From Aggregatimonas sangjinii (GTDB lineage Bacteria > Bacteroidota > Bacteroidia > Flavobacteriales > Flavobacteriaceae): DNA of 64,000 bases. The stretch lies in contig NZ_CP040710.1 of the NCBI RefSeq assembly GCF_005943945.1, forward strand, positions 1,499,001-1,563,000, written 5' to 3'. The position numbers and the translations under genes are program-made. Below the pieces are notes generated by a model. The model was not told the DNA's origin, did no database searches, and worked only from the letters and a program-made list of their open reading frames with translations. Shown one piece after another: positions 2,790 to 23,657 of this stretch. Within the stretch, counting starts at the first letter, position 1. Each line of letters begins with the position of its first letter.

Positions 2790-2823
2790 TGGTAAGACAA
2801 CATATTAATTTTACGCTACTATT

Positions 2824-5960: not shown

Positions 5961-7430
5961 GTGCTCATTTATGGTGCGGGAGAATCTGGAATACTCACTC
6001 ACAATGCACTTACGAATCATTCGAAGAGCAGGGCGCGAGTGGTAGGTTATATCGATAATGATACAAAAAAGACAGGAAAACTGATCAATGGTGTAAAGGT
6101 CTATCCAAAAGAGGTGTTAAGCAAGTCGTTCCTTGATAAAAACAATATCTCGGAGGTTATTTTCTCTATTCAAAATATAGATCCTAAAAATCTGAGGTCT
6201 TTGGTTGAAAATCTGGTTGAATTTCCCGTTCAAGTAAAAATAGTGCCCCCTGTTGAAGACTGGATAAATGGAGAATTAAAAGCATCTCAGATTAAACAGG
6301 TACAGATAGAGGATTTGTTGGACAGACCACCTATTAACATCAAGAATGAAAAAATCGAACAAGATCTCCGGGGTAAAGTAATACTCGTGACGGGAGGAGC
6401 GGGTTCCATCGGCAGTGAGCTCGTGCGTCAGATATGCGGTTATGATTACAAAGCCTTGGTCATAATCGATCAGGCAGAGTCTGCTTTATATGATTTGCAG
6501 CAAGAACTTAAACAAAACGGCTACCATAACTTTGTTCCTATTGTAGGCGATATTAGGGATAAAAATAGATTGAGCGCCATTTTTCAGGAACATAAGCCGC
6601 ATATCGTTTTTCATGCCGCCGCCTATAAGCATGTACCGTTGATGGAGTACAATTCTTATGAAGCGATTAAAGTCAATATCGCAGGTACCAAAACGGTAGC
6701 GGACCTGGCCGTTAGTTACGGGGTAGATAAGTTTGTCTTCGTTTCTACCGATAAGGCCGTGAACCCGACCAATGTGATGGGCGCCACAAAAAGAATCGCA
6801 GAAATGTATATGAGCTGTATGCAGCAAGAAATGAAGACCAAATTCATCATCACACGTTTTGGGAATGTTTTGGGCTCCAATGGTTCGGTAATACCCTTGT
6901 TTAGAAGACAAATAGAAAATGGCGGCCCTTTAACCGTGACCCATTTAGACGTAACTCGTTTCTTTATGACCATCCCGGAAGCCTCTCAATTGGTGCTAGA
7001 AGCAGGTGCCATGGGCGAAGGGGGAGAGATATTCATTTTTGATATGGGCGAATCGGTTAAGATATTCGATTTGGCAAAGAATATGATCAGGCTATCCGGG
7101 TTAAGCTATCCAGATGACATCGATATTAAGATTACGGGACTTAGGCCTGGTGAAAAACTATACGAAGAGCTTTTGGCCAATGGTGAGAATACCCTTCCTA
7201 CATACAATAAGAAAATAAAAATAAGCAAGGTGCGCGAATTGGATTTTGCCCACGTACGGTCTAAAATCGATGAACTTTGTGTTACGAACATGTTTTTCTC
7301 CGGTAACACCGTTATGCTGATGAAGGAAATCGTACCAGAGTATGTGTCGAATAATTCAGATTTCTGCGAGCTCGATAAAAAGAATGGGAAGAGCAAGAGC
7401 AAATCAGTGCTAAAGGTTGTGCAGTCATAA
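5961..7430 (+). CDS. CapD/WbpM-like nucleotide-sugar 4,6-dehydratase, main part after frameshift
   Basis: The GTG at 5961 is only the first start-like codon in this frame. The true protein most likely starts at 5495 and crosses the frameshift. The piece holds the first Rossmann-like domain (IYGAGESG) and then the SDR domain with TGGAGSIGSELVRQI for NAD(P), FHAAAYKHVPLME, STDKAVNPTNVMGATKR for catalysis, and FGNVLGSNGSV. Family members dehydrate and sometimes epimerise UDP-GlcNAc at the membrane, feeding an aminotransferase. The DegT enzyme at 2824-4032 fits as partner. If the frameshift is real the catalytic domain could still be translated from an internal start, but it would lack its membrane anchor. 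Confidence 0.88.
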   Translation: MLIYGAGESGILTHNALTNHSKSRARVVGYIDNDTKKTGKLINGVKVYPKEVLSKSFLDKNNISEVIFSIQNIDPKNLRSLVENLVEFPVQVKIVPPVEDWINGELKASQIKQVQIEDLLDRPPINIKNEKIEQDLRGKVILVTGGAGSIGSELVRQICGYDYKALVIIDQAESALYDLQQELKQNGYHNFVPIVGDIRDKNRLSAIFQEHKPHIVFHAAAYKHVPLMEYNSYEAIKVNIAGTKTVADLAVSYGVDKFVFVSTDKAVNPTNVMGATKRIAEMYMSCMQQEMKTKFIITRFGNVLGSNGSVIPLFRRQIENGGPLTVTHLDVTRFFMTIPEASQLVLEAGAMGEGGEIFIFDMGESVKIFDLAKNMIRLSGLSYPDDIDIKITGLRPGEKLYEELLANGENTLPTYNKKIKISKVRELDFAHVRSKIDELCVTNMFFSGNTVMLMKEIVPEYVSNNSDFCELDKKNGKSKSKSVLKVVQS

Positions 7431-7488
7431 ATTTTCCTTAATCTTGCAAACAGAAAATCGAAATATGTTCATCGTAAAACGTATCAAT

Positions 7489-8265
7489 ATGAAGCTTACC
7501 ACAAATCTAGTTTTTCTCGCCTTATCGACCATCTTGTTATTCAGTTCTTGTGGTTCTAAAAAAGATGTGGTTTATTTTCAGGATACAGGCGATTATGAGA
7601 CCATTGTAAGCAATAACAAGCACGTTGGTAAATTTAAAATCGATGATGTCGTAAGCATTAATGTATCGACCTATGACCCTACAGCAAGTATGCCTTTCAA
7701 TTTGTACAGGGGTGGTGGTATCGAACAGGGATCTCGAGGGGAGCAGATCGATTATATCGTAGATAAGAATGGTGAAATAGAATTTCCGGTTATAGGGGCG
7801 ATTAAAATTGTAGGATTATCCTCCGATGAGACAAAAACGCTTATTAAGGAAAAGCTGAAACTATATCTTAAGGATCCTATCGTAAATATTCGTCTAAAGA
7901 ATTTTACGGTGACTATTCTGGGTGAAGTGAACAGACCCGGAACATATCCTGTGAACGGCGAGCAGATTACGATATTGGAAGCAATCGGTCTTGCTGGGGA
8001 TTTGACCATAAAAGGAAAACGCGATAATGTAATGGTTACACGCGATTTTAATGGAACGAAGGTGTATACAAGGGTAGATTTGACTAGAAAAGAAACGATG
8101 AGTTCGCCGGTCTTTTATCTTACCCAAAACGATGTCGTTTACGTAGAGCCGAATCAGTCCGCAATAACCTCTTCTGCATTGGATAACAGAGCTACTATCT
8201 GGGTTTCCATACTTTCTACCTTGCTTACTACTTCGGTACTTATTATCACCAACAACAACAGATAG
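7489..8265 (+). CDS. Wza-like polysaccharide export lipoprotein
   Basis: Outer-membrane export channel protein for capsule. The start at 7489 (MKLTTNLVF) gives a clean lipoprotein signal with lipobox FSSC; an in-frame ATG at 7465 adds eight residues and is the alternative. A poly-export domain follows (VSINVSTYDPT, YIVDKNGEIEFPVIG), then one SLBB domain (VTILGEVNRPGTYPV, ILEAIGLAGD), and the protein ends in a hydrophobic segment TLLTTSVLIITNNN. At about 258 residues it is shorter than E. coli Wza, as is usual in Bacteroidota. Eighteen bases separate it from the kinase gene, so the two are co-transcribed. Confidence 0.92.
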   Translation: MKLTTNLVFLALSTILLFSSCGSKKDVVYFQDTGDYETIVSNNKHVGKFKIDDVVSINVSTYDPTASMPFNLYRGGGIEQGSRGEQIDYIVDKNGEIEFPVIGAIKIVGLSSDETKTLIKEKLKLYLKDPIVNIRLKNFTVTILGEVNRPGTYPVNGEQITILEAIGLAGDLTIKGKRDNVMVTRDFNGTKVYTRVDLTRKETMSSPVFYLTQNDVVYVEPNQSAITSSALDNRATIWVSILSTLLTTSVLIITNNNR

Positions 8266-8283: not shown

Positions 8284-10671
8284 ATGCAAGCTAATTTCAA
8301 GGGATTTTCCACAAAGGAGACAGACTTCAAAGCCCTACTTACTTCGTATACCAAGCATTGGAAATGGTTTCTACTCTCCATATTGGCGGCGTTATCGGTT
8401 GCTTACGTGTACATCAGATACAAAATACCTGAATATAAGGTTCAGGCAAAGATCAAAGTGCTCGAAGAAAAAAATGGGTCACCTGAAATGTCAATCTACA
8501 AAGACCTAGATCTTTTCGGTGCAGGAAAGAATAAGGTCGAAGATGAGATAGAAGTACTAAATTCCAGATCCAATTATTTGGAAGTGGTAAAACAGCTCGG
8601 TATTAATGTGGTACTCAGAAATGTTGGTACGGTCACCGAAAGCGAGATTTACCGAACGCCACCCATTAAATTAAGTTTTTTAGAAGCCGACTCCATAGTC
8701 AGAAGGGCGCGGTCAAGTTTCTATCTGGATATTTCTTCTACGACCACATTTGGTTTTAGTGAAGAACAAGATGGCCCCGTTAAGGTGTATTCTTTCGGCA
8801 AGGCGATACCGACCGACGTAGGTGAGGTAATCATCACGACCAATGTCGAGCATTTTAACAGTTACAAAGGCAAAAAAATAAAAGTTGAAATTTCACCTTT
8901 AGTAGACGTTGCCTTGGCCTATAAGACAAGAACTTCGATAGCTCCGGCACAGGATTTTTCGAATATCGTTAACCTTTCCCTGAATGACCCGATACCGCAA
9001 AAGGCAATTGATGTGCTGAATACCCTCATCGGTATTTACAACAAAAATGCCATAGATGATAAGAGGGTCATTGCCGAGCGAACTTTTGATTTCATCAACG
9101 ATAGGATCGCCGATATTTCGGGAACGCTTACCGATACCGATGAGAATGCAGAACAATTTCAAACACGACGGGGGGTAGTTGACATAAATGCGCAAACCAG
9201 TGTCAACTTGACCGTTGGCGCGCAAAATAGCCAAGAACTTCAGAATGCAACTACGCAATTGAACATCGCTAGCTCGATGAAGGAAATCGTTAGTAGTGAA
9301 GACGGTTATCAAGAATTACCATCGAATGTGGGCTTGAACGATCCTACTATCGCAGCGAATACAGCTAAATACAATGAATTGGTGAGGGAGCGAAAGCGAC
9401 TGTTGAAGAACGCCAATGAACAGAACCCGATGATCATTAACTTAGACCAACAATTGGACGGTCTAAAAAATAGTGTGGCATCTAGTGTTGGTAGTATGGT
9501 AAACAACCTAAGTTTACAGGTCAATAGTCTAAGTAATAACCAAAGAACCATTAACTCAAGAATATATTCCGCTCCGAGTAATGCTAGGGCCTTGCGGGAC
9601 ATTACGAGAAAACAGGAAACGACAGAATCGTTATTTCTCTACTTATTACAGCGTCGTGAGGAATCCCAAGTTGGTCTAGCGTCTACCTCGCCGCAATCTA
9701 AGATAATAGACAATGCGTATAGAACCAGTCGCGCTCCGGTATCCCCTAAGAAATCGATTGTTTACTTGGCATTTCTTATTGTTGGCTTCGCTATACCATT
9801 TTCAATCCTCTATGCAAACGATTTATTGGATGATAAGGTTCACAATAAGACCGGTTTAGAAAAAATGGTTAAAGACATTCCGGTGCTCGCCGAGCTGCCG
9901 CGTTTAGCTAAAAAGGAATCTAAACTCATTCGAAAAGATGATCGTTCGGTGCTAGCGGAATCGTTAAGGATATTAAGGACGAATTTAGATTACCTGATGA
10001 AATCCAAGAGAACCACGGGTAAGAATAACGTGGTGTATGTTACCTCAAGTGTATCTGGGGAGGGTAAAACGTTCCTTTCATCTAATTTGGCCATGATTTT
10101 CGCCAACACCGGAAAGCGGGTTTTGCTTATCGGTGCCGATATCAGGAATCCTAAACTTTATACCTTTTTCGACACCAAGGATGTCGATAACCTCGACAAG
10201 AACAAGAAAGCCAAACGAAGCACGAACAATGGTTTGACGGAATATCTTTATGATGACTCTATCGAGGCAAAAGATATTGTCAATTCGCTTTTGGTACAGA
10301 GCAATACCATAGATGTAGTTTATTCGGGCAAGATTCCACCCAATCCAGCTGAACTCTTGATGAGTGAACGTATGAAGGACTTAATGACCGAGATGTCGGA
10401 GGAATACGATTACGTTATTGTTGATACCGCTCCTTTAATGGTTGTGACGGATACGTTGCTAATCAGCGATTATGCCGATCATATGATTTATGTAACCCGT
10501 GCCGGTGTTACTGAGACTAGAGTGTTGGAATTCCCTAGTAAACTTAAGGCGGAAGGTAAATTAAACGGACTTTGTTTCGTCGTAAACGATGTGAAAGAGT
10601 CAAATCTGGGTTACGGCGGCAAATATGGCTATGGATATGGTAAGAGCCTTAAAAAATGGTGGAAATTCTAA
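8284..10671 (+). CDS. Wzc-like polysaccharide co-polymerase / bacterial tyrosine kinase
   Basis: 795 residues. A Wzz-type periplasmic domain lies between two membrane helices (WFLLSILAALSVAYVYI near 25-45 and IVYLAFLIVGFAIPFSIL near 495-515). A long coiled-coil region sits in between. The cytoplasmic BY-kinase domain has Walker A SGEGKTFLSSNLA, Walker A' VLLIGADIRNPKL and Walker B YVIVDTAPLMVV. The tail is a tyrosine cluster (YGGKYGYGYG) for autophosphorylation, followed by KKWWKF. It sets polymer length and opens export together with the Wza-like protein. The phosphatase that would reverse it lies 12 kb away at 22920-23657, past the two giant oxidase genes. Confidence 0.95.
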   Translation: MQANFKGFSTKETDFKALLTSYTKHWKWFLLSILAALSVAYVYIRYKIPEYKVQAKIKVLEEKNGSPEMSIYKDLDLFGAGKNKVEDEIEVLNSRSNYLEVVKQLGINVVLRNVGTVTESEIYRTPPIKLSFLEADSIVRRARSSFYLDISSTTTFGFSEEQDGPVKVYSFGKAIPTDVGEVIITTNVEHFNSYKGKKIKVEISPLVDVALAYKTRTSIAPAQDFSNIVNLSLNDPIPQKAIDVLNTLIGIYNKNAIDDKRVIAERTFDFINDRIADISGTLTDTDENAEQFQTRRGVVDINAQTSVNLTVGAQNSQELQNATTQLNIASSMKEIVSSEDGYQELPSNVGLNDPTIAANTAKYNELVRERKRLLKNANEQNPMIINLDQQLDGLKNSVASSVGSMVNNLSLQVNSLSNNQRTINSRIYSAPSNARALRDITRKQETTESLFLYLLQRREESQVGLASTSPQSKIIDNAYRTSRAPVSPKKSIVYLAFLIVGFAIPFSILYANDLLDDKVHNKTGLEKMVKDIPVLAELPRLAKKESKLIRKDDRSVLAESLRILRTNLDYLMKSKRTTGKNNVVYVTSSVSGEGKTFLSSNLAMIFANTGKRVLLIGADIRNPKLYTFFDTKDVDNLDKNKKAKRSTNNGLTEYLYDDSIEAKDIVNSLLVQSNTIDVVYSGKIPPNPAELLMSERMKDLMTEMSEEYDYVIVDTAPLMVVTDTLLISDYADHMIYVTRAGVTETRVLEFPSKLKAEGKLNGLCFVVNDVKESNLGYGGKYGYGYGKSLKKWWKF

Positions 10672-11063: not shown

Positions 11064-14000
11064 ATGAGAAAAAACTACACTTCAAAAGTATTCTTCATAT
11101 TAGTATTTTTCTGTTGCTCAATAAGGATTTTTTCTCAGAGTCCTAGTGATGATGGGCAGTGGGGGCCGGTTATCCCTTTTGAAATCGTACCCGTTGCGGT
11201 AGCCAACCTTCCCGACGGTCGATTGATTACATGGTCAAGCCAATTTCCAAATACGTGGCTTGCCGCAGGTACCGGGATGACTTATACGCAACTTTTCGAC
11301 CCTGCTACCGATAATACATTGCCCTCTACGGTTACTCAGACAGATCACGATATGTTCTGTCCTGGCATCAATAACCTGTCCGATGGGCGTATTCTTTCTG
11401 CTGGGGGTACCACTAGCGAACGCACAAGTATCTATGATCCGGTAACGAACGTTTGGAGCGAAGCTGCAGATATGAACGTACCTAGGGGGTATCAAGGAAA
11501 TGTAACACTTTCCGATGGTTCGGTATTCACCGTGGGCGGTTCTTGGGATGCGGGACCCGATGGAGGTAAGAACGCCGAACTTTGGACCGAGGAAACCGGA
11601 TGGGTTTATCTTCCGGGAATTGCCTCCGACGATTTTCTGTACAATACAAACGACAGGGCTTTTGAGTATGAGGGCGTTTTTAGGTTAGATAATCACGTAT
11701 GGCTCTGGCCAGCGCCGAATGGAAAACTTTTTCAGGCCGGTCCAGGAGAGGAAATGCACTGGATCGACGTCGTTGGTAACAATGGTACGGGTTCATGGGT
11801 CAGTGCCGGACAACGGGCGGATGATACCTATTCAATGAAAGGAACCACGGTCATGTTCGATACCGGAAGAATACTAAAAGTAGGTGGTTCGCGATCATAC
11901 GACAGTAATACCCCGGCCAAGGAGCGCTCCTTTGTTATCGATATCAATGGTACCTATGGCAGTATTCCGCCAGTAACAGAGACAGCCAATACCTTGGAGT
12001 TTGCGAGAACGATGCATAACAGTACGGTCTTACCAAATGGTGAAGTTTTGGTAACCGGAGGATTGGACCATGCCGAAACCTTTACGGATGTAGGAGCTGC
12101 CCTGACCGCGGAAATCTACAACCCAACCACGAATAGCTGGCGTAGCGTGGCAGGTATGGCTACCCCTAGAACATACCACAGTGTGGCGATATTGATGCTA
12201 GACGGCCGTGTGTTCGTTGGTGGGGGAGGGCTTTGCGACAATACCCCAGGTTGTGTAAATAATGACAATGCCGAAATTTATAGCCCGCCCTATCTTTTCG
12301 ACGGGAGTGGCAATTTGGCTACAAGACCGGAAATAATGACCTTTCCGGCAACTGCGGATTATAATTCGAACATATCGGTTACCACGGATACAAACGTTAC
12401 GGAATTCAGTTTAATTCGTTTTTCGGCGGCGACACATAGTACCAATAACGAACAACGTAGAATTCCACTGACTACTACAAGTGGTACTTCCCATAACCTA
12501 ACCATACCAGATAGAAATCTGCTTCCACCGGGCTATTACATGTTGTTTGCTTTGGATGCGAATGGAGTGCCCTCGGAAGCGAAAGCTATTCAGATAGGAA
12601 ACGATATCCCTTTAGCGACTAATCCAAGTCTGATACTCGACTTGAAATTTGACGATGCACCAGGGGCCAACGCTGCCGACGATTCTCAATACAACAATGA
12701 TGCGATTGTTTATGATGTTGACAATGCCGGCGCTCAAAAAGTTGAAAATACGGCTTCGATTGTTCCAAGCGAGGGGCTTTTTGGAGGTGCTTTACGTACG
12801 GATGGGGCTAAGTTTCAAAGTAACACGATTGCTGAGATACCGTATTCCGAATCTTTGGGTTCCATCAATCGTTTCGTAACGGTGATGGCATGGGTGAACC
12901 GGGATGAAATTGTGAATAACGCGAGCGTTTACAGCAACGACTACCCGAATACTTTTTTCGGATTTCACAATAGCCTATACAAATGGGAATTCTTTACCGA
13001 AGACGGTCAGGCCAGTTGCTACGCAGGTTATACACCCACGAGTCAATGGGTACACATGGCGGCTACTTACGATGGGAATATGGCTAGATTGTATGCCAAC
13101 GGCGTCGAGATATGCGCCAAACCGATTACCGGAGACATTTTGGTCACTTCTGCCGATGCGAACCCTAATTTCAATGCCTTTAGTACTTCAGGTTTCTATG
13201 AAAGGCGGACACCGGCACAAATTGGGGAACCTACAAATAACAGCGGTGTAACCGATGAACTTGATGGTCGAATAGACGAGTTAAAGGTATACAATAAGGT
13301 ATTTTCGGCCGAGGAAATAAAGGAGGTCTTTGAAATAGGGGAGGCCCTAGCCGAAGTAACGGATTGTCCAGAGGGCACGATTGTGACCGAATTTAAGATA
13401 GGTGCTTCTGGAACTTGGACTGAGAGTCCGAACATCAATGCCCCTGAAGGCTCGGAAGTTTATATACGAGCCAAGGATTATGTTGGCGATTACTTCGTGA
13501 CGACTCCCGAAATTGATGGAAATACGTTTATGTCGACCGCGGATTTCGACACTGCCGACGGCTATCGTTTAGATACGGGAACGAATAGAGGAAACAACGA
13601 TGGGCTGGTTAATGTTGACGATTCTGGCCAATATGTTCTTACCACAGCAGATGGTTGTCCGGCAGTGATCAATCTCACTGTAATAGGAACTTGTGGTCCT
13701 GGCGATACGCAAATAGAGTCGGAATTTCGGATAAATGGCGATTGGGATACTCCCCTAAATGGTCAAACCGAAATTACTTTGGAGGAAGGTACGGAGCTTT
13801 GGCTAAGTGCAACGCCAAATGAAGTAAATGGTAGTAACTTACTCATTACCATAACCTTGCCAAACGGAGATGTGGTAGGCGATGATTACAATTTAGGCCC
13901 GGTATCGGAAACCAGTCAAGGTACCTATATCATAAGTTCCCAGGAAGGATGTTCAGTGGCCGTAGTGCTTACAGTATCGGAATTAGACTGTAGTACGCTA

Positions 14001-16253
14001 GGATTGCAGTCGGAATACAAAATCAACGATAATCTATATCAAATTGACAATCCAACGGCCACGTTGCCGGAAGGAGCCGAATTAACGCTCAGCATTGCAC
14101 CCGAAAACACTATATTTTCGGTCACCGACCCCAACGGTACAGAGGTATACAACGGATCAACGAATTATATAATCGATAATGTAAACGTTGCAGATCACGA
14201 TGGATTATTTACGCTCACTACGGCTGCAGGTTGTTTTGTAACAGTTGACGTAACTGTAGAACCGGTCGATTGTGCGAACGTGATGACCGAGTATCAAATC
14301 AATAGTGGCCTATATCAGGTGGGGGAATCTGAGGTAGGTGTAGAGGAGAACGCCAGATTGGCATTGAGTATCGCTCCCAACGATATCCCGTTCACCGTAA
14401 CCTTGCCCGATGGTTCAGTAGAAAATGTTCGGGCTGGCCTTGATTACGTAATAGATGCCATAGCCTTAAGTCAGTCAGGTACCTACACTTTTAATACCCC
14501 TGTTTCGGATTGTACATTAAGTTTAGATGTAACCGTGGCAGGAATAGACTGTGATGCTATTGATTCCGAATACCAAATAAATCAAAATCTCTTTCAGATA
14601 AATGAACCAACGGCCGAGATGGATGAGGGGAGCAGATTGACTTTAAGCATAGAACCCGATGATGCACCCTATACTATAACACTCCCCAATGGCACTGTCG
14701 AAAATGTTGCGGCCAATACGGATTTTGTTATTGAAAATGTAGATCAGACACATAATGGCGACTTTATACTGACCGCCAAGAACGGATGTGAAAAGACCAT
14801 TACGGTAATCGTGAACGAAATTGATTGTTCGGAAGTGGCTGCCGAATATCGTGTGGGTGATACTCCATGGGTTTCGAACGCCACAGAAGTAACTATCGAT
14901 GAAGGGCAACAACTACTAATAAGTTTGTTCCCTAACGATTTACCTTACATGATTACCGACCCTTCCGGCACGGAAACTAATTTTGCCTCTGGCTTGGAAA
15001 ATTATACGATTGCTAATGCTTCGCAGTCCGATGCTGGTACATACATATTGACTACCTCGGGAACGGGTTGTTCGGTTAGTCTGAACGTAAATGTAAATAA
15101 TCCAGCTTGTACAGCCTTAAATCTAAGACCTGAATACAGTATCAATGGGGGTGATTTCGTAGAGGGAACAACTGGTGAATCATTGGTTTTGGACGAAGGG
15201 GATATGCTTGTGCTCAGTGCACTTCCGGATATGGATAACGGAACTCCGATTCCGGTTACGATTACGTTACCCAATGGTACAGAGGTTAGCGACGGTCATG
15301 AAATCACCTCGTTGACAGCAACTGATGAGGGGTCTTATCTTTTTACTACAGACATTGGTTGCACGACCAATTTACAAGTAGTCGTGAATCCCGCTGGTGT
15401 TGATTGTGCCGACGTGAACCTTGTTCCGGAATATAGTATCAATGGCGCGGCCTTCCAGGTGGGTACTGATGGGGAAACCTTGACGTTGACTGAAGGAGAT
15501 GGCATTGTTTTCAGTGCATCACCAGAAGACTATAATGGTCTTCCCGTAAATGTAACCCTAACGCTACCCGACACTAGTTTTGTATCCGATGGTTACGAAA
15601 TCGTTTCGTTGACCAGTGCTGATAATGGGGTATACACTTTTACATCCGATTCCGGCTGTACAACAACATTAAGCCTGGTGGTCGATGAAGATGAACCCTC
15701 AGAATGTACAGGTACTAGTATTACTCCAGAGTATTTCATTAATAATCAAACGACGCAAAGTGGCGGTGAATCCATTCTACTACCCATCGGAAGTAGCTTA
15801 GTGCTCGGAATTGTACAAGATGATGCTTTTACCATAACCTTGCCCAATGGTACTGAGATTACAGGGGAGTATACCATTGATAGTATTCAAATGACCGACG
15901 CAGGGGTATATACCTTTACTTCGGAGCAAGGTTGTACCAGTCGCTTTAACGTTTCGATTACCGAAGAAGGTATTTCCGATGGTACGCTGAATGACATGAT
16001 TGTCTATCCCAATCCAGTACGAGATGGCATGCTGCACTTCGCTCTAGAAGATTATATGGGTCAGGAGATTCGGGTGCAAATAAATGATATTTACGGAAAA
16101 ACTATTCTTAGAAATGTTTTCCAATCAACGCACCAAGCTGATGAAGTAATTGATATTTCCATCTTAAACGAAGGCATATACATAGTCATTATTTCGAGGA
16201 ATACTGATAATGACGTGGCTTTTAAGAAGGTAATCAAATTAGGCGGACTTTAA
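11064..16253 (+). CDS. Secreted galactose-oxidase-like copper radical oxidase (AA5) with LamG, Ig-like repeats and T9SS tail
   Basis: 1729 residues. Order: signal peptide (to about 25), seven-blade Kelch catalytic domain, early-set domain (to about 515), LamG/concanavalin-like domain (about 520-765), nine Ig-like modules of 80-90 residues, and a T9SS sorting domain from about 1645 (VYPNPVRDG to the end). The catalytic residues of fungal galactose oxidase line up: Cys99 (HDMFCPG) and Tyr143 (RGYQ) for the thioether, Trp161 (GGSW) stacking, and Tyr371-His372 (RTYHS) and His458 (ATHSTN) for copper. Spacings 99-143-161 equal 228-272-290 of the fungal enzyme as I remember it. These enzymes oxidise primary alcohols to aldehydes and make H2O2. 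The substrate here is unknown; galactose-rich polysaccharide is a guess. Confidence 0.9.
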   Translation: MRKNYTSKVFFILVFFCCSIRIFSQSPSDDGQWGPVIPFEIVPVAVANLPDGRLITWSSQFPNTWLAAGTGMTYTQLFDPATDNTLPSTVTQTDHDMFCPGINNLSDGRILSAGGTTSERTSIYDPVTNVWSEAADMNVPRGYQGNVTLSDGSVFTVGGSWDAGPDGGKNAELWTEETGWVYLPGIASDDFLYNTNDRAFEYEGVFRLDNHVWLWPAPNGKLFQAGPGEEMHWIDVVGNNGTGSWVSAGQRADDTYSMKGTTVMFDTGRILKVGGSRSYDSNTPAKERSFVIDINGTYGSIPPVTETANTLEFARTMHNSTVLPNGEVLVTGGLDHAETFTDVGAALTAEIYNPTTNSWRSVAGMATPRTYHSVAILMLDGRVFVGGGGLCDNTPGCVNNDNAEIYSPPYLFDGSGNLATRPEIMTFPATADYNSNISVTTDTNVTEFSLIRFSAATHSTNNEQRRIPLTTTSGTSHNLTIPDRNLLPPGYYMLFALDANGVPSEAKAIQIGNDIPLATNPSLILDLKFDDAPGANAADDSQYNNDAIVYDVDNAGAQKVENTASIVPSEGLFGGALRTDGAKFQSNTIAEIPYSESLGSINRFVTVMAWVNRDEIVNNASVYSNDYPNTFFGFHNSLYKWEFFTEDGQASCYAGYTPTSQWVHMAATYDGNMARLYANGVEICAKPITGDILVTSADANPNFNAFSTSGFYERRTPAQIGEPTNNSGVTDELDGRIDELKVYNKVFSAEEIKEVFEIGEALAEVTDCPEGTIVTEFKIGASGTWTESPNINAPEGSEVYIRAKDYVGDYFVTTPEIDGNTFMSTADFDTADGYRLDTGTNRGNNDGLVNVDDSGQYVLTTADGCPAVINLTVIGTCGPGDTQIESEFRINGDWDTPLNGQTEITLEEGTELWLSATPNEVNGSNLLITITLPNGDVVGDDYNLGPVSETSQGTYIISSQEGCSVAVVLTVSELDCSTLGLQSEYKINDNLYQIDNPTATLPEGAELTLSIAPENTIFSVTDPNGTEVYNGSTNYIIDNVNVADHDGLFTLTTAAGCFVTVDVTVEPVDCANVMTEYQINSGLYQVGESEVGVEENARLALSIAPNDIPFTVTLPDGSVENVRAGLDYVIDAIALSQSGTYTFNTPVSDCTLSLDVTVAGIDCDAIDSEYQINQNLFQINEPTAEMDEGSRLTLSIEPDDAPYTITLPNGTVENVAANTDFVIENVDQTHNGDFILTAKNGCEKTITVIVNEIDCSEVAAEYRVGDTPWVSNATEVTIDEGQQLLISLFPNDLPYMITDPSGTETNFASGLENYTIANASQSDAGTYILTTSGTGCSVSLNVNVNNPACTALNLRPEYSINGGDFVEGTTGESLVLDEGDMLVLSALPDMDNGTPIPVTITLPNGTEVSDGHEITSLTATDEGSYLFTTDIGCTTNLQVVVNPAGVDCADVNLVPEYSINGAAFQVGTDGETLTLTEGDGIVFSASPEDYNGLPVNVTLTLPDTSFVSDGYEIVSLTSADNGVYTFTSDSGCTTTLSLVVDEDEPSECTGTSITPEYFINNQTTQSGGESILLPIGSSLVLGIVQDDAFTITLPNGTEITGEYTIDSIQMTDAGVYTFTSEQGCTSRFNVSITEEGISDGTLNDMIVYPNPVRDGMLHFALEDYMGQEIRVQINDIYGKTILRNVFQSTHQADEVIDISILNEGIYIVIISRNTDNDVAFKKVIKLGGL
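13690..15970 (+). repeat. Eight divergent Ig-like modules in the first oxidase
   Basis: Each unit starts near a Cys followed by [PS]EY-x-IN and ends in a G-x-Y/F-x-[FIL]-x-T-x4-GC motif. Eight units follow one more divergent copy at about 13370-13690. The DNA of these copies has diverged, unlike the near-identical units of the neighbouring paralogue, so this array looks older or under different selection. Confidence 0.75.
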
Positions 16254-16501
16254 TTTACATAATGCTTGATTACAGCCTCTTAAGCGAGTTGCGTGATGTA
16301 AATAGTATTTGTCTACCATACATACACCAAAATGAACCGTTTGATATTAGAACCATACAACCCGTACAATTCTTTAGGTACGGGTAAGGTGGTTGTATAG
16401 AATGTCTTAAATTTACGACTCGAAATTAACCTTCCCCTTTTCTTTAATTGGTTGAAATCAATCTTTTCTAGGGAAACAGATTGATAAAAAACTTATGGTT
16501 T

Positions 16502-19500
16502 ATGGGAAAGCTTTCTTTTTTTTACTGCAGTGTCGCATTTTTTATATCAATTCTCTGCACTACATCTACTACGGCGCAAACACCCTCCCAGGAAGGTGCA
16601 TGGGGAGATGTAATACCTTTTGAAATCGTTCCTGTTGCCGTTGCTAATCTTCCGGATGGGCAATTGATTACTTGGTCGAGTCAATTTCCAAATACTTTTG
16701 TAGGTTCCGGCACGGGTATGACGCTTACGCAACTCTTTGATCCCGCTATTGATGCAACCCTGCCTGCGACCACTACCCAGACCGATCATGACATGTTCTG
16801 TCCTGGTATCAATAACCTTTCCGATGGCCGCATCTTATCGGCTGGCGGAACCAGTAGTCAGCGAACCAGCATTTATGATCCAAGTACAGGGACATGGAGT
16901 AAAGCAGACGACATGAACGTGCCCAGGGGATACCAGGGAAATGTTACGCTTTCCGATGGTTCCGTTTTTACGGTCGGAGGGTCTTGGGATGTCGGTCCCG
17001 ATGGAGGGAAGAATGCGGAATTATGGACACCGGAAACAGGATGGTCCTATCTTCCAGGCATAGATTCCGATGATTTTTTACACAATGCCAACGATAGGGT
17101 CTTGGAAAGTCAAGGACTTTTCAGACTCGATAATCATGTATGGTTATGGCCTGCCCCTAACGGAACGATATTTCAAGCAGGTCCAGGAGAACAAATGCAT
17201 TGGATCGATGTCAATGGAAATAATGGAGCAGGTTCTTGGGTGACTGCAGGTCAGCGATCAAACGACACCTATTCCATGAAGGGGACTACCGTAATGTTCG
17301 ATATCGGAAAAGTGCTCAAGGTGGGGGGGTCACGTTCTTACGATAGCAATACCCCAGCGAAGGAGCGTTCTTTCGTAATCGATATCAATGGTACCTATGG
17401 TAGCACCGCCACCGTTACCGAAACGGCGAATACACTAGAGTTTGCAAGAACCATGCATAATAGTACGGTATTGCCTAACGGCGAGGTATTGGTAACCGGA
17501 GGACTTGATCATGCGGAGACATTTACCGATATAGGTGCTGCGCTTACCGCTGAAATCTACAATCCGACTACAAATAGCTGGCGGAGTGTGGCCGGTATGG
17601 CAACGCCTAGAACCTACCACAGTGTAGCGATTTTATTGTTGGACGGTCGTGTGTTCGTGGGTGGTGGTGGCCTTTGTGACAATACACCAGGTTGCGTAAA
17701 CAACGATAATGCAGAAATTTACAGTCCGCCTTACCTTTTCGATGCAACCGGAAACTTGGCCACTAGGCCTGAAATTATTACGACTCCTTTAACGGCCGAT
17801 TACAATAGCTCGATTACGGTAGAGACCGATCGTAACGTATCTGAATTTAGCCTGATTCGATTTTCGGCTGCTACACACAGTACCAATAATGAACAGCGTA
17901 GAATTCCATTGGCAACGGTAGAAGGCACTTCCCATACATTGACAATACCGGATAGGAATTTGCTTCCACCGGGCTATTATATGCTTTTTGCCCTTAATGC
18001 AGATGGCGTGCCCTCGGTTGCCAAAGCCATTCGAATAGGTACCGATATCCCATTAGTTACAGACCCCAGCCTAGTGTTGGATTTAAAATTCGACGATGCC
18101 TCAGGTTCAGACTTAGCGGATGCTTCTCAGTATGCCAATGATGCTTCGATCTATGACGTTGATAATAACCGCGCCGTAAAGGAGGCCAATTCCAATAGCC
18201 TAGGTACCGGATTGTTTGGCGGAGCTCTGGTAACCGATGGTTTTAAGTTTCAAAGCAATACCATAGCCGAAATCCCGTATTCGGAGTCCATCGCATCCAT
18301 TGATCGATTCGTTACGGTTTTGGCGTGGGTAAAGCGGGATGAAGTTGTGAATAATGCTAGCATCTTTACCCATGACTACCCGAACATGTTCTTCGGCTTT
18401 CACAATAGTCTTTATAAATGGGAATTTGATACCGACCAGGGCAGGGCAAGTTGTTATGCTGGATATACTCCACCTGGAGTGTGGGTGCACATGGCTGCTA
18501 CCTACGACGGCGAAACTGCCAGATTATATGCAAATGGACAGGAAATATCGGCCAAGTTGATATCAGGCAATATTAGAATCAACCCCTCCGAACCTGATTT
18601 TTCCTCATTTAATGTATCTGGATTTTATGAGAGAAGAACCAATCCGAGTGGAGATTACAATGGAAGCGGGGTAACCGATGAATTGGATGGCAGTATTGAT
18701 GAGTTGAAGGTATATAATAAGGTTTTAAATGCAGAAGAGATAAAGGCCATTTTTGATTTGGGCCAGGGTTTACCAATGGTGCCTGAATGTGTTTCACAAC
18801 CTCTCGTTGCGGAGTATAAAATCGGGGCTTCCGGTACTTGGATATCAGGGGCTAACGTAAATGCGAACGAGGGAGAAGCCATTTATATAAGAATCAAGGA
18901 TTTTTCGGATGAATTTTTAATTACGATTCCCGAAATAGATGGCGATACGTTCAGTTCTCTTTCTGATTTTAACACCGCCGATGGGTACAGAATAGGAACC
19001 GGTACAAGAAGAGGGGATAACGATGGTCTTTTGGATTCCGAGGATTCTGGCCAGTACGTGTTAACTACGACTGAAGGTTGCCTAACGGTGATTAACCTAT
19101 CCGTTATCGGGGTATGTGGCCCGGAAGATACACCGATTATTCCCGAATATCGCTTGAACGGTGTTTGGCAGAGTGGAGAAAACAATTTAAATGTAGAAGA
19201 AGGTACCGAGGTGATGTTCAGTATTCTACCTAATAATTTGGATGTTACCGTTACATTCCCGGATGGTACGGTCGTCGGTGATGATTATAACTTAGGCGAA
19301 GTGACCAATGTACAAAACGGGCCTTATATTTTAACATCTGCGGAAGGTTGTTCTACTATCGTACATCTTACGGTAGGTGATGCCGAATGTCCTGAAGGTA
19401 CAATAGTTCCGGAATATACGATTGATGGGGTAGCGCAAAGTGGAGCGAATACGATTACCGTAGATGAAGGTCAGGAGGTAATATTAAGTATCCTGCCCGA

Positions 19501-22500
19501 TAATCTAGGCACCATTATTACTCTTCCAAATGGAGCTGTGGTAGGCGATAATTATGTTATCGATGGTATTTTACCCGCCCAAAGCGGGGAATATACATTT
19601 ACTTCAACGACGGGTTGTACGGCTACTTTAAACATCGATGTAACTGCCGGTTGCAGCCCTGGTCAGATTATTCCCGAATACAGATTGGACGGTGTTTGGG
19701 ATAGCGGTTTGAACGATTTGAATGTTGCTGTGGGCACAGAGGTAATGTTCAGCATGTTACCCAACTATATTGGGGTAACCGTCACGTTTCCTGATGGTAC
19801 GGTAGTGGGCGATGACTTTAATATTGGTGCAGTCGATGAATCCGATAGTGGTGCCTATACCTTACTATCTGCCGAGGGATGTAGTACGAATATAAATTTA
19901 ACGGTAGGTGATGCCAATTGTCTATCAGGCGATGTTGTTCCTGTATATACCATAGATGGGATCACCCAAAGTGGGGCTGGTGCCATTACGATACAAGAAG
20001 GGCAATCCGTCGTTTTGAGCATATTACCAGATGGAGTAGGTGCTGCGATTACGCTTCCTAACGGCGATCAGGTAGGTGATACTTATGACTTGGGCCATGT
20101 CGCTCCCGCGCAGAGCGGCACGTACACATTTACTTCGTCGGAAGGCTGCGTCGAAACATTGGATATTACGGTGGAAGCGCTTTCATGCCAAACTGGCGAC
20201 CTGATTCCGGAATACACCATAGATGGGAGTACCCAGAGTGGTTCAGGTACTATCACCATCCTAGAAGGTCAATCGGTCGTTTTAAGCATGTTGCCCGACG
20301 GGATAGGCCTTACGATTACGCTTCCTAGCGGTACTGAGGTGGTCGACAATTACGACTTGGGCAATGTCGTTCCTTCACAAAGTGGCATCTATACGTTTAC
20401 TTCGGCCGACGGCTGCGTCGAAACATTGGATATCATTGTAGAAGCGGCCGATAACTGCCAACCAGGCCAAATCATTCCGGAATACCGTTTGGATGGTATT
20501 TGGGATAGCGGATTAAACGACTTGACTGTTGCCGTGGGCACCGAGGTTATGTTCAGTATGTTGCCCAACAACATTGGCGTAACCGTTGAGTTTCCCGACG
20601 GTACGATAGTAGGCGACGATTTTAATATTGGTACGGTAACCCCCGCCAACAATGGTGCTTACATACTAAGGTCATCCCAAGGCTGTACAACGATTATCAA
20701 TTTAATGGTAGGGGACGAAGGATGCCAATCTGGCGATGTGCTTCCGGAATATACTATTGACGGTATCACCCAAAGTGGAGCCGATGCCATCACAATCCAA
20801 GAAGGCCAATCGGTCGTCTTGAGCATGCTGCCAGACGGAGTAGGTCTGACGATTACGCTTCCGAACGGTACCCAGGTAGGTGACGATTATGACTTGGGCA
20901 ATGTGGTCTCTTCCCAAAGCGGTATTTATACGTTCACCTCGGCCGAAGGCTGCGTCGAAACATTGGATATCACAGTGGAAACGATTTCATGCCAAGCTGG
21001 TGATGTGATTCCGGAGTACACCATTGACGGAATCACCCAAAGCGGGGCCGGTGCCATCACGATACAAGAAGGCCAATCGGTCGTCTTGAGCATGCTGCCA
21101 GACGGCGTAGGTCTGACGATTACGCTTCCGAACGGTACCCAGGTAGGTGACGATTATGACTTGGGCAATGTGGTCCCTTCCCAAAGCGGTATTTATACAT
21201 TTACCTCGGCCGAAGGCTGCGTCGAAACATTGGATATCACAGTGGAAACGATTTCATGCCAAGCTGGTGATGTGATTCCGGAGTACACCATTGACGGAAT
21301 CACCCAAAGTGGAGCCGGTGCCATCACGATACAAGAAGGCCAATCGGTCGTCTTGAGCATGCTGCCAGACGGCGTAAGTCTGACGATTACGCTTCCGAAC
21401 GGAACCGAGGTGGGCGACAACCATGATCTCGGTAATGTGGTCCCTTCCCAAAGCGGTATTTATACATTTACCTCGGCCGAAGGCTGCGTCGAAACATTGG
21501 ATATCACAGTGGAAACGATTTCATGCCAAGCTGGTGATGTGATTCCGGAGTACACCATTGACGGAATCACCCAAAGCGGGGCCGGTGCCATTACGGTACA
21601 AGAAGGCCAATCCGTCCTTTTGAGCATGTTGCCCGACGGAGTAGGTCTAACGATTACGCTTCCGAACGGCGACCAGGTGGGCGACAACTATAATCTCGGT
21701 AATGTGATCCCTTCCCAAAGCGGTATTTATACGTTTACTTCGGCCGAAGGCTGCGGCGAAATACTGGACATTACTGTGGAAGCAGACGATAACTGCCAAC
21801 CTGGTCAGATTATTCCGGAATACCGCTTGAATGGTATTTGGGACAGTGGTTTGAACGATTTAACGGTGGCTTATGGTACTGGCGTCATGTTCAGTATGTT
21901 GCCCAACAATATCGGGGTAACCGTCGAGTTTCCCGACGGTACTATAGTCGGCGATAATTACAACATTGGTGCGGTAACCCCGACCAATAATGGTGCGTAC
22001 ATACTAAGGTCGTCCCAAGGCTGTCAAACAACAATCAATCTAACGGTAGAAGAGCAAAACTGTCAGCCCGATGCTGTAATTCCCGAGTATACGGTTGACG
22101 GAAATACGCAAAGCGGGGCTGGGAATATTACCGTAGAAGAGGGGCAATTAGTTGTCTTAAGCATGGTGCCGGACGGTATCGGTCTTACGATTACCCTTCC
22201 CAGCGGTGCGCAAGTGGGTGACAACTACAACCTTGGAAATATAATCCCTTCGCAGGGCGGCATCTACACCTTTACTTCTGATGCCGGCTGTGTTGAGACG
22301 TTGACAATCAACGTGAATCCTGCCTCCTGCCAGCCTGGGGATATTATTCCCGAATACCGCCTAGACGGCATCTGGTCGAGTGGTTTGAATGATTTGACCG
22401 TAGATGAAGGTACAGAAGTCATGTTCAGCATGCTTCCGAACAATATAGGTGTAACGGTCGAGTTCCCTAACGGAACCGTAGTCGGCGATGATTTTAATAT

Positions 22501-22900
22501 TGGCGCCGTGACGTCTGCAAATAATGGTGCCTATGTATTGACTTCCTCCGCGGGCTGCCAGACGACCATCAATCTGACCGTGGCATCGGCTAGCAGGGCA
22601 GATTTTAACACCGGTACTGCGGATAGCACAGCGAATGATACGTTCACAAGAGGGGTGTCGATGGTGTATCCGAATCCGACCGAAGGACTATTGCATATAA
22701 ATCTTAATGGTTTTGAAAATCAGCAGTTGGTGGCAATGGTCTTCAATTCGATGGGGCAACTGGTTTTTGAAAGCCATTTTAATAAGGAACATGGCGTTCA
22801 GGAACAAATTGATTTGAACACGCTGCCCGATGGATTATATCGTCTCACGCTGCAAAGTGCAACCCACAAGCAGATACATTCGGTCTTAATAAGAAGGTAA
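16502..22900 (+). CDS. Second galactose-oxidase-like copper radical oxidase, with 14 Ig-like modules and T9SS tail
   Basis: 2132 residues from ATG 16502 (a TTG at 16481, preceded by AGGG, is the alternative start). A close paralogue of the previous gene over the catalytic and LamG domains; its own copies of the copper residues are Cys100, Tyr144, Trp162, Tyr372-His373 and His459. After LamG come one divergent and thirteen clear Ig-like modules of two kinds. R-type reads PEYRLDG-W-DSG with [17 protein letters not shown]-type reads PEYTIDG-TQSG with LPDGVGLTITLPNG. The T9SS tail starts near residue 2054 (VYPNPTEG). It is predicted to be exported and attached to, or released from, the cell surface. 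It lies 250 bases after its paralogue, so it is probably a tandem duplication that later gained modules. Confidence 0.9.
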   Translation: MGKLSFFYCSVAFFISILCTTSTTAQTPSQEGAWGDVIPFEIVPVAVANLPDGQLITWSSQFPNTFVGSGTGMTLTQLFDPAIDATLPATTTQTDHDMFCPGINNLSDGRILSAGGTSSQRTSIYDPSTGTWSKADDMNVPRGYQGNVTLSDGSVFTVGGSWDVGPDGGKNAELWTPETGWSYLPGIDSDDFLHNANDRVLESQGLFRLDNHVWLWPAPNGTIFQAGPGEQMHWIDVNGNNGAGSWVTAGQRSNDTYSMKGTTVMFDIGKVLKVGGSRSYDSNTPAKERSFVIDINGTYGSTATVTETANTLEFARTMHNSTVLPNGEVLVTGGLDHAETFTDIGAALTAEIYNPTTNSWRSVAGMATPRTYHSVAILLLDGRVFVGGGGLCDNTPGCVNNDNAEIYSPPYLFDATGNLATRPEIITTPLTADYNSSITVETDRNVSEFSLIRFSAATHSTNNEQRRIPLATVEGTSHTLTIPDRNLLPPGYYMLFALNADGVPSVAKAIRIGTDIPLVTDPSLVLDLKFDDASGSDLADASQYANDASIYDVDNNRAVKEANSNSLGTGLFGGALVTDGFKFQSNTIAEIPYSESIASIDRFVTVLAWVKRDEVVNNASIFTHDYPNMFFGFHNSLYKWEFDTDQGRASCYAGYTPPGVWVHMAATYDGETARLYANGQEISAKLISGNIRINPSEPDFSSFNVSGFYERRTNPSGDYNGSGVTDELDGSIDELKVYNKVLNAEEIKAIFDLGQGLPMVPECVSQPLVAEYKIGASGTWISGANVNANEGEAIYIRIKDFSDEFLITIPEIDGDTFSSLSDFNTADGYRIGTGTRRGDNDGLLDSEDSGQYVLTTTEGCLTVINLSVIGVCGPEDTPIIPEYRLNGVWQSGENNLNVEEGTEVMFSILPNNLDVTVTFPDGTVVGDDYNLGEVTNVQNGPYILTSAEGCSTIVHLTVGDAECPEGTIVPEYTIDGVAQSGANTITVDEGQEVILSILPDNLGTIITLPNGAVVGDNYVIDGILPAQSGEYTFTSTTGCTATLNIDVTAGCSPGQIIPEYRLDGVWDSGLNDLNVAVGTEVMFSMLPNYIGVTVTFPDGTVVGDDFNIGAVDESDSGAYTLLSAEGCSTNINLTVGDANCLSGDVVPVYTIDGITQSGAGAITIQEGQSVVLSILPDGVGAAITLPNGDQVGDTYDLGHVAPAQSGTYTFTSSEGCVETLDITVEALSCQTGDLIPEYTIDGSTQSGSGTITILEGQSVVLSMLPDGIGLTITLPSGTEVVDNYDLGNVVPSQSGIYTFTSADGCVETLDIIVEAADNCQPGQIIPEYRLDGIWDSGLNDLTVAVGTEVMFSMLPNNIGVTVEFPDGTIVGDDFNIGTVTPANNGAYILRSSQGCTTIINLMVGDEGCQSGDVLPEYTIDGITQSGADAITIQEGQSVVLSMLPDGVGLTITLPNGTQVGDDYDLGNVVSSQSGIYTFTSAEGCVETLDITVETISCQAGDVIPEYTIDGITQSGAGAITIQEGQSVVLSMLPDGVGLTITLPNGTQVGDDYDLGNVVPSQSGIYTFTSAEGCVETLDITVETISCQAGDVIPEYTIDGITQSGAGAITIQEGQSVVLSMLPDGVSLTITLPNGTEVGDNHDLGNVVPSQSGIYTFTSAEGCVETLDITVETISCQAGDVIPEYTIDGITQSGAGAITVQEGQSVLLSMLPDGVGLTITLPNGDQVGDNYNLGNVIPSQSGIYTFTSAEGCGEILDITVEADDNCQPGQIIPEYRLNGIWDSGLNDLTVAYGTGVMFSMLPNNIGVTVEFPDGTIVGDNYNIGAVTPTNNGAYILRSSQGCQTTINLTVEEQNCQPDAVIPEYTVDGNTQSGAGNITVEEGQLVVLSMVPDGIGLTITLPSGAQVGDNYNLGNIIPSQGGIYTFTSDAGCVETLTINVNPASCQPGDIIPEYRLDGIWSSGLNDLTVDEGTEVMFSMLPNNIGVTVEFPNGTVVGDDFNIGAVTSANNGAYVLTSSAGCQTTINLTVASASRADFNTGTADSTANDTFTRGVSMVYPNPTEGLLHINLNGFENQQLVAMVFNSMGQLVFESHFNKEHGVQEQIDLNTLPDGLYRLTLQSATHKQIHSVLIRR
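19114..22590 (+). repeat. Array of thirteen Ig-like modules in the second oxidase
   Basis: Units of about 80-90 residues in the order R, T, R, T, T, R, T, T, T, T, R, T, R (R and T as defined for this gene). Each has a Cys at its start and a GC near its end, which could form one disulfide per module. The R-type matches the single module in the pectate lyase at the start of the window. Confidence 0.85.
20724..21791 (+). repeat. Four near-identical 267-bp tandem repeats
   Basis: Units begin at 20724, 20991, 21258 and 21525 with an exact 267-base period (89 codons). The middle copies differ at only a few bases. This is the recently amplified T-type block, where recombination or assembly collapse can change copy number without a frameshift. 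Confidence 0.9.
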
Positions 22901-22919: not shown

Positions 22920-23657
22920 CTAACTGAAATTGTAGGTAGTACTATCGATCAACGGCCTTAGGGTATCGGCGAGCTTTTTAGATATTTTCATTTCTTTTAG
23001 CGATGTAAGCTGATGAAAGTTATGCACATCACTTGCAATAAAATCGTATAGTCCCTCATCGAGTAATTTCATTGCCGTTTTTTGAACATCCTTTCCATAA
23101 TATTCGCTTAAGGACAACATGTTTAGTTGATAGAGAATACCGTTCTTTTTGTATATGGTGTGTTTACCGAGTCTATTGTACAGAAAAACATAGCGTTCCG
23201 GGTGGGCCAAAATAGCAAAATAACGTTGGGAGGCCAGTTTTTGTATGGCGCTATCGAAATTTATCGAAGGCTGCAGGTACGACATCTCTATCAATACGTA
23301 GTTTTTGCCCAACGGCATGATTTCGCCTTTTTCTAGAATCGTTTCGAAATTTGCATCAATCATATGTTCGGCAGCTGCCGTAATAACAGTATTTAAATCG
23401 ATTCTCCCGATTTCGGAGTGCAACTCGGCCAACGCCTTTTCAATTGTCTGGGGAGTGTTGGGGTAGTAGTTGTGCATAATATGAGGGGTCGCTACAAAGT
23501 TCGTAACGCCAAAATCCGAAAATCCCTTAAGCAGTACTATGGATTCCTCGACATTTTTTGCGCCATCATCTATGCCGGGTAGGATATGATTGTGTATGTC
23601 GACAAATCCCTCTAAAGTATCGATCAGAAATTTTTTTCGAGTAAAGAAACTTATCAT
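22920..23657 (-). CDS. CpsB/YwqE-type tyrosine-protein phosphatase (PHP fold)
   Basis: 245 residues of the PHP metal-dependent phosphatase family that dephosphorylates Wzc-type kinases. The metal motif DIHNHILPGIDDGAK is near residue 20; ATPHIMHNYYPNT, LAHPERY and ASDVHN supply further metal ligands. It converges on the second oxidase gene with 19 bases between the stop codons. It has its own promoter-like box at 23676-23683, so it is regulated apart from the capsule operon although it should act on that kinase. Confidence 0.93.
   Translation of the reverse strand: MISFFTRKKFLIDTLEGFVDIHNHILPGIDDGAKNVEESIVLLKGFSDFGVTNFVATPHIMHNYYPNTPQTIEKALAELHSEIGRIDLNTVITAAAEHMIDANFETILEKGEIMPLGKNYVLIEMSYLQPSINFDSAIQKLASQRYFAILAHPERYVFLYNRLGKHTIYKKNGILYQLNMLSLSEYYGKDVQKTAMKLLDEGLYDFIASDVHNFHQLTSLKEMKISKKLADTLRPLIDSTTYNFS

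Follow-up and report, generated by a model that had tools for sequence, protein, structure and literature searches.

Galactose oxidases are already known from bacteria; in the available excerpts of the literature their role there is poorly known, and the few studied cases concern surface glycans or development. In Streptomyces, glxA lies in an operon with cslA, and a surface glycan that requires both genes is possibly modified by GlxA (excerpts of PMC9040799 and PMC4736821), a radical copper oxidase needed for glycan deposition (excerpts of PMC3543389, PMC4736821 and PMC9040799). In Stigmatella aurantiaca, the galactose-oxidase-like protein FbfB, likened here by its description alone, is needed for fruiting bodies (excerpt of PMC3543389). 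The present analysis concerns a stretch of 64,000 nucleotides of the Aggregatimonas sangjinii genome (contig NZ_CP040710.1, positions 1,499,001 to 1,563,000; hereafter the window), in which two tandem genes, GO1 and GO2, encode galactose-oxidase-like proteins predicted to be exported by the type IX secretion system (T9SS). From sequence and gene context, GO1 and GO2 are probably surface oxidases of family AA5 that act on galactose-type residues of the cell's own Wza/Wzc-exported exopolysaccharide, a reading to which a probability of roughly 0.55 is given. They would be a functional parallel to the GlxA-CslA pair, working like it, though neither is a GlxA.

A preliminary description of the window had called bacterial AA5 enzymes on long arrays of immunoglobulin-like (Ig-like) modules little described. 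This does not extend to bacterial galactose oxidases as such, as one has been solved (9g43, 9g8h) and GlxA and FbfB are published, in the excerpts available, but it stands for the T9SS-displayed Ig-array form beside capsule export, of which no example was found among the matches listed in the open-licence literature. A bacterial alcohol oxidase of AA5 that is fused with a CE3 domain was reportedly described by Mazurkewich et al. in 2023 and, by its title alone, shares with GO1 and GO2 the placing of an AA5 enzyme in a multidomain protein.

Catalytic domain and substrate specificity

The catalytic domain of GO1 was predicted with AlphaFold2 (AF2; pLDDT 90.1, pTM 0.91), and the whole domain matches 1gof, 9g43, 6ryx and 5c86 in structure comparisons. 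Among solved structures, the galactose oxidase of Pseudoarthrobacter siccitolerans (9g43, 9g8h) matches best (48-50% identity, Foldseek template-modelling (TM) score 0.90); its crystallised chain of 617-618 residues ends with the catalytic domain, and no paper on it was found among the matches listed in a literature search. The fungal galactose 6-oxidase of AA5_2 (Fusarium, 1gof) shares the fold (TM 0.91), six active-site residues, the W290/R330 pair and F464, but is 41-42% identical, and its Q406 and Y329 are Asp and Phe in GO1 and GO2. About 150 residues precede the fungal catalytic domain; one PDB molecule name gives them as F5/8C-type, which we take them to be, and to our knowledge the fungal enzyme has no LamG domain, Ig array or T9SS tail.

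Residues C99, Y143, W161, R207, Y371, H372 and H458 of GO1, and C107, Y151, W169, R215, Y379, H380 and H466 of GO2 (numbered from TTG), align with C228, Y272, W290, R330, Y495, H496 and H581 of 1gof. The codons of both sets were checked, and the Cys-Tyr-Trp spacing of 44 and 18 residues is identical in all three proteins. The GO-like_E_set domain (PF09118) is matched at E 2.8e-21 in GO1 and 9e-21 in GO2, and the kelch, Laminin_G_3 and Por_Secre_tail families score above their Pfam cut-offs in both. The preliminary description had claimed that the two paralogues retain every known copper and radical residue of fungal galactose oxidase and its Cys-Tyr-Trp spacing; codons, alignment, profile search and structural overlay all agree with it. 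GO1 and GO2 are almost certainly AA5 copper radical oxidases of the galactose-oxidase kind, which would bind copper and form the Tyr-Cys bond, and the fuller reading of the pair as T9SS-exported enzymes of this type has good support from the sequence, the predicted fold and the residues of the active site.

Neither protein belongs to the GlxA family: NCBIfam NF052501 gives 154.7 and 150.5 bits against an equivalog cut-off of 800. GlxA, at 20% (Foldseek) to 27% (VIA) identity, has a synthase, CslA, as its partner, whereas the neighbours of the GO pair are Wza and Wzc. Its active site is buried and shows no significant activity on galactose (excerpt of PMC4736821).

Relatives were taken as the best 80 of 129 (70 loci), a set biased to close kin. 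Among 87 aligned sequences, C228, Y272, Y495, H496 and H581 are kept in all, W290 in 83 and R330 in 84; the Trp of 6ryx, counted among the 83, is probably engineered, its sister 6ryv having Tyr. All seven residues are kept in each of the 31 tree rows labelled wza/wzc. The Trp290/Arg330 pair is a galactose-associated marker of AA5_2 (excerpt of PMC11267884), and its retention in GO1 and GO2 makes it likely, but not certain, that they oxidise galactose-type sugars at C6 and release hydrogen peroxide (H2O2).

A different oxidase on the same fold, whether for general or aryl alcohols or for aldehydes, appears improbable. Such a role would fit the variation of positions 194, 326, 329 and 406 across the clade, the lack of significant galactose activity in GlxA (excerpt of PMC4736821), and the statement that specificity is not readable from single residues (excerpt of PMC11267884). 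It fits less well with the joint retention of W290 and R330 in 31 of 31 wza/wzc-labelled rows, and with the nearest solved relative, 9g8h, which by its title was crystallised with galactose and has the same Phe, Arg and Asp at 329, 330 and 406 as GO1 and GO2.

Domain architecture and export

Behind the catalytic domain, both proteins carry a LamG-like domain, 9 (GO1) or 14 (GO2) Ig-like modules and a T9SS tail (Table 1), as Pfam and a module count confirm for the make-up first read from the sequence. The arrays consist of 8 and 13 regular modules, and each array opens with one longer, divergent module. A single predicted module (pLDDT 91.6) retrieves mostly Ig-superfamily domains among the Foldseek matches listed, none at E 0.001 (best 0.024), and Pfam Ig_3 stays below its cut-off. 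Judged by eye, both N-termini are signal-peptide-like; the mechanical open reading frame (ORF) of GO2 starts at TTG 16481 (2139 aa), and ATG 16502 offers the better signal-peptide-like start. The genome encodes SprA (2854 bits), and 26 of its 27 listed T9SS type A tails exceed the cut-off. GO1 and GO2, with a C-terminal Por_Secre_tail in a T9SS-bearing genome, are predicted to be T9SS type A cargo.

The tree joins GO1 and GO2 as sisters (SH-aLRT, approximate likelihood-ratio support, 100), and their catalytic domains are 86% identical, with synonymous and nonsynonymous differences of pS 0.79 and pN 0.094. The synonymous sites are saturated, indicating that the pair is old and that purifying selection has acted on both copies, and a recent tandem duplication was rejected on this ground. 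Adjacent modules of the tandem array in GO2 are nearly identical, so module number may differ between strains. GO1 and GO2 have a GC content of 0.44-0.48, higher than that of the window (0.42) and of wzc and cpsB on either side (0.40-0.42).

Gene context in the window and in relatives

On the forward strand, the order of genes is Polysacc_synt_2, Wza, Wzc, GO1 and GO2, followed by CpsB/CapC on the reverse strand. The pair is thus enclosed by wza, wzc, cpsB and sugar-nucleotide and glycosyltransferase genes, a Wza/Wzc export locus, a setting absent from the preliminary description.

The E-set family is present in 7 of 10 genomes of the genus; of the genomes sampled, 16 of 397 in the family and 5 of 395 in the phylum carry the domain, the window's own genome being included each time. 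The trait is therefore patchy. The 70 loci are mostly from Flavobacteriaceae (Maribacter, Flagellimonas, Kriegella, Pelagihabitans, Croceitalea, Sediminicola, Zobellia, Winogradskyella and Gelidibacter), with fewer from Saprospiraceae, Leucothrix, Burkholderiales, Arthrobacter and cyanobacteria. Among 28 hand-chosen complete Bacteroidota proteins, window pair included, all have a T9SS tail, 22 a LamG domain and 6 an F5/8C domain (E 0.001). In the Saprospiraceae protein of locus L119 the tail is below cut-off, and the Pfam list of the Leucothrix protein (L117) shows none.

Context was compared over 82 distinct genes, defined by a different central catalytic sequence among 110 ORFs, window pair included, with neighbours beyond the window labelled by blastp to proteins of the window, L046 or L060. 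Locus L120 (Cupriavidus sp. YR651) falls outside the 82, and an identical-core pair of Maribacter halichondriae, found in both contexts, is counted once under wza/wzc. The flank contains wza or wzc in 32 genes, an extracytoplasmic function (ECF) sigma factor or its anti-sigma in 15, and neither in 35. Two layouts account for all but two of the 32: 11 genes, GO1 included, follow wzc immediately and in the same orientation, at 150-392 nt, and 19 are divergent from a Polysacc_synt_2-wza-wzc operon, the remaining two being GO2, behind GO1, and the copy of Cupriavidus sp. U2. At eight loci, a GO gene stands on each side of wza/wzc. Across 20 GO-bearing genomes, window included, 15 of 31 GO genes, at 11 of 27 loci, lie no more than 10 kb from a Poly_export gene, where a fraction of 0.0071 would be expected (binomial 3e-17, kinship ignored).

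The association also reaches beyond Bacteroidota, as Wza and Wzc in Cupriavidus sp. U2 and a Wzc in sp. YR651 lie near a GO copy. A quick tree was built with SH-aLRT support only and two fungal sequences as outgroup, leaving out the fragment L063 and adding L134, L135, L137 and three PDB chains. The wza/wzc label requires 6 changes on this tree, of which at least 4 are forced by starred branches. Descent of all copies with a single inherited wza/wzc block was rejected on this count, with the care due to a quick tree that warns of long branches. The central 200 catalytic residues of the Maribacter halichondriae copies at L085 (wza/wzc) and L091 (ECF) are identical, suggesting that the two sites recently shared sequence by copying or by gene conversion.

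This recurrent neighbourhood gives a direct substrate hypothesis, the cell's own exopolysaccharide, for example in Maribacter, Kriegella and Pelagihabitans. GO1 and GO2 would be exported by Sec and then by the T9SS, and the LamG domain and Ig-module stalk would hold the catalytic domain away from the cell. There, the C6 primary alcohol of galactose (Gal) or N-acetylgalactosamine (GalNAc) residues in the exopolysaccharide made by the locus would be oxidised to a C6 aldehyde and H2O2, and the aldehydes could go on to set the matrix through hemiacetal or Schiff-base bonds. If so, enzymatic aldehyde cross-linking would join the possible routes of bacterial matrix assembly, and the clade would supply glycan labelling with a set of new galactose oxidases, some of which have lectin domains.

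Several observations weigh against this proposal. The polymer would have to contain Gal or GalNAc, and the identified sugar enzymes mostly indicate uronic acids, which lack a C6 alcohol. GO1 and GO2 carry Asp at 406 and Phe at 329, and changes of Gln406 and Tyr329 go with weaker galactose activity, for which Arg330 is described as necessary but not sufficient (excerpt of PMC11267884). No match occurs in 381 of the 397 family genomes and 3 of the 10 genus genomes, yet Poly_export is found in 19 of the 20 GO-bearing genomes, indicating that the enzyme is not a standard part of export. Neither locus stands in the flank of 35 of the 82 genes, for some of them through contig ends; copies from Gelidibacter, Winogradskyella and Algibacter have other neighbours (the Algibacter copy lies beside ribosomal-protein genes, by eye from N-termini), and the binomial value takes no account of shared ancestry. 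With a gap of 392 nt between wzc and GO1, co-transcription is not implied, and GO1 and GO2 may have their own promoter.

An attack on foreign galactans such as agar, carrageenan or algal galactose side chains for polysaccharide use is unlikely. The galactose-type active site, the 16 SusD matches that mark the genome as that of a polysaccharide user, the lectin-like LamG domain and the F5/8 type C domains in 6 of 28 scanned relatives would all suit it. However, ORFs of 96 GO loci (some duplicates) match none of five SusD and five SusC-sized proteins of the window's own genome, in a comparison in which all SusC-sized queries and nearly all SusDs find one another. In the 20 GO-bearing genomes, SusD is also far more frequent than Poly_export (353 against 33 matches), and among the SusD matches listed none lies within 10 kb of a GO gene. 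An algal polysaccharide utilisation locus at the GO genes was rejected for want of SusC/SusD neighbours in the flanks. Of the three roles first suggested for the pair, modification of the cell's own capsule or exopolysaccharide is thus the one favoured by genome context, and the algal galactan role is left without SusC/SusD support in the flanks.

A wider form of the third of these roles, in which H2O2 is the real product, a weapon against rivals or a surface defence, and the sugar only fuel, seems improbable as well. AA5 chemistry does yield H2O2 (excerpt of PMC11267884), 15 of the 82 genes stand beside an ECF sigma/anti-sigma pair, which would fit stress-regulated expression, and the copy at L112 lies beside heavy-metal efflux genes. 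The repeated link to wza/wzc would be left unexplained, and no peroxidase or catalase family was found among 20 Pfam-scanned neighbours in the window, several of which have no match at all. Oxidation of the cell's own exopolysaccharide is preferred over both galactan attack and a peroxide weapon.

The ECF-locus copies lie beside DUF2807, M48 and Lon-type genes. At L112, efflux genes of the AcrB/CusA and CusB types, together with a heavy-metal-binding domain (L112:4064-9485, reverse strand), are directly divergent from the GO gene, which would fit copper use. The copy at L110 lies beside BshC. Efflux and BshC neighbours are identified by Pfam in L112 and L110 only, and L111 and L114, and L097, L102, L105 and L107, are grouped with these by gene size and layout alone. 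L107 also encodes an F5/8C protein (L107:18890-21476, forward strand) with a short start resembling the GO domain and no E-set or kelch match, possibly a decayed copy.

Ig-module family and GSDH-headed proteins

The Ig module family of GO1 and GO2 occurs on seven ORFs of the window's genome with different heads: besides the oxidases, a glucose/sorbosone dehydrogenase (GSDH) type, a metallophosphoesterase-like type (purple acid phosphatase, E 1.8e-7), a 2326-aa protein, a lyase-like protein and a 775-aa protein with a head that matches nothing in the PDB at 0.001. The stalk is therefore general, and an Ig array special to oxidases was rejected.

This generality bears on a further alternative, in which the polysaccharide is an anchor rather than a substrate: genes for T9SS cargo would settle near polysaccharide loci, and the enzyme would act on small alcohols or other glycans. 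T9SS cargo of Porphyromonas is attached to anionic lipopolysaccharide (excerpts of PMC8545088 and PMC7468200), and seven ORFs with different heads suggest that display is a general need. The explanation is nevertheless unlikely, as only GO1, GO2 and the lyase-like gene among the seven lie in the wza/wzc locus, and as the Cupriavidus sp. U2 copy stands by Wza and Wzc although its Pfam list shows lectin domains of the ricin type and lacks a T9SS tail.

In the ECF slot, where relatives hold a galactose oxidase, the window's genome holds a GSDH-headed T9SS protein with eight Ig modules of the GO1/GO2 family (Table 1). Its head matches hedgehog-interacting protein (E 1e-31), which is not known to be an enzyme, and then quinoprotein glucose dehydrogenase (E 1e-15) in the PDB; from the Pfam family, one might guess at a pyrroloquinoline quinone enzyme. 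Seven other genomes also encode GSDH-like proteins close enough to a GO gene to fall within its flank (L048/L084, L054/L094, L091, L097, L106, L110 and L112; Pfam-checked in three), and those of L097 and L054 additionally match cytochrome c-type and lectin or F5/8C domains.

A broader proposal, tentative and doubtful as a whole, joins two claims. The first is a "curing" step in polysaccharide export in Flavobacteriaceae and, separately, Burkholderiales, in which displayed galactose oxidases would turn C6 alcohols of fresh exopolysaccharide into matrix-cross-linking aldehydes, a counterpart of GlxA-CslA reached by a different AA5 branch. The second is that redox heads are interchangeable on the stalk, the ECF slot bearing a galactose oxidase in relatives and a GSDH-type sugar dehydrogenase on related Ig modules here.

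Other features of the locus

Table 1. Positions of GO1, GO2 and associated features (window coordinates unless a locus is named).
Feature	Position	Strand	Evidence or remark
GO1, 1729-aa galactose-oxidase-like protein, predicted T9SS export	11064..16253	+	complete ORF, Pfam/NCBIfam
GO1 catalytic domain (kelch propeller and GO-like E-set)	11136..12599	+	AF2, Foldseek, codons checked
GO1 Laminin_G_3 (ConA-like lectin), residues 604-753	12873..13322	+	Pfam E 1.1e-17
GO1 Ig-like modules, 9, first longer and divergent	13350..15968	+	
GO1 T9SS type A sorting domain, residues 1647-1724	16002..16235	+	Pfam and NCBIfam above cut-off
GO2, ~2132 aa from ATG, GO1-like architecture	16502..22900	+	complete ORF, Pfam
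GO2 catalytic domain	16577..18037	+	Pfam, alignment, codons checked
GO2 Laminin_G_3, residues 611-755	18311..18745	+	Pfam
GO2 Ig-like modules, 14	18770..22591	+	
GO2 267-bp DNA tandem array, 6.9 copies, within Ig region	19928-21781		
GO2 T9SS type A sorting domain, residues 2062-2136	22664..22888	+	Pfam and NCBIfam above cut-off
Polysacc_synt_2 nucleotide-sugar dehydratase/epimerase	5961..7430	+	Pfam E 4.9e-121
Wza-like polysaccharide export protein	7417..8265	+	Poly_export and SLBB
Wzc-like chain-length/tyrosine autokinase	8284..10671	+	Wzz, GNVR, AAA_31
CpsB/CapC capsule phosphatase, convergent with GO2	22920..23657	-	Pfam E 3.4e-40
Sugar transferase, DegT aminotransferase and glycosyltransferase of polysaccharide cluster	2199..5120	-	Pfam
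Pectate-lyase-like protein, runs off window start	1..1786 (full: L147:107-2386)	-	PDB matches
GSDH-headed 1590-aa T9SS protein	L146:7333-12105; G000:C1 ~1037333-1042105	+	divergent from ECF sigma gene

Scans found promoters at about shuffle level (34 against 27, standard deviation 5.9) and terminators below it (4 against 12.2). The pectate-lyase-like protein, 759 aa in full, matches a pectate lyase (PDB 9buj, E 2.1e-34) and VexL (6fi2, E 2.4e-9), has no Pfam match at 1e-4, and contains one Ig module of the GO1/GO2 family as well as a segment rich in PEPEPT. Lying at the far end of the polysaccharide genes, it is possibly a lyase for the cell's own polymer. The wider cluster upstream contains two genes of the UDP-glucose/GDP-mannose-dehydrogenase family, one of them TviB-like (551.6 bits, cut-off 592), together with epimerases, acyltransferases and glycosyltransferase-like genes. 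Two asparagine-synthase-like amidotransferases on the reverse strand of the cluster (L138:9321-11225 and 13653-15503) may amidate uronic acids.

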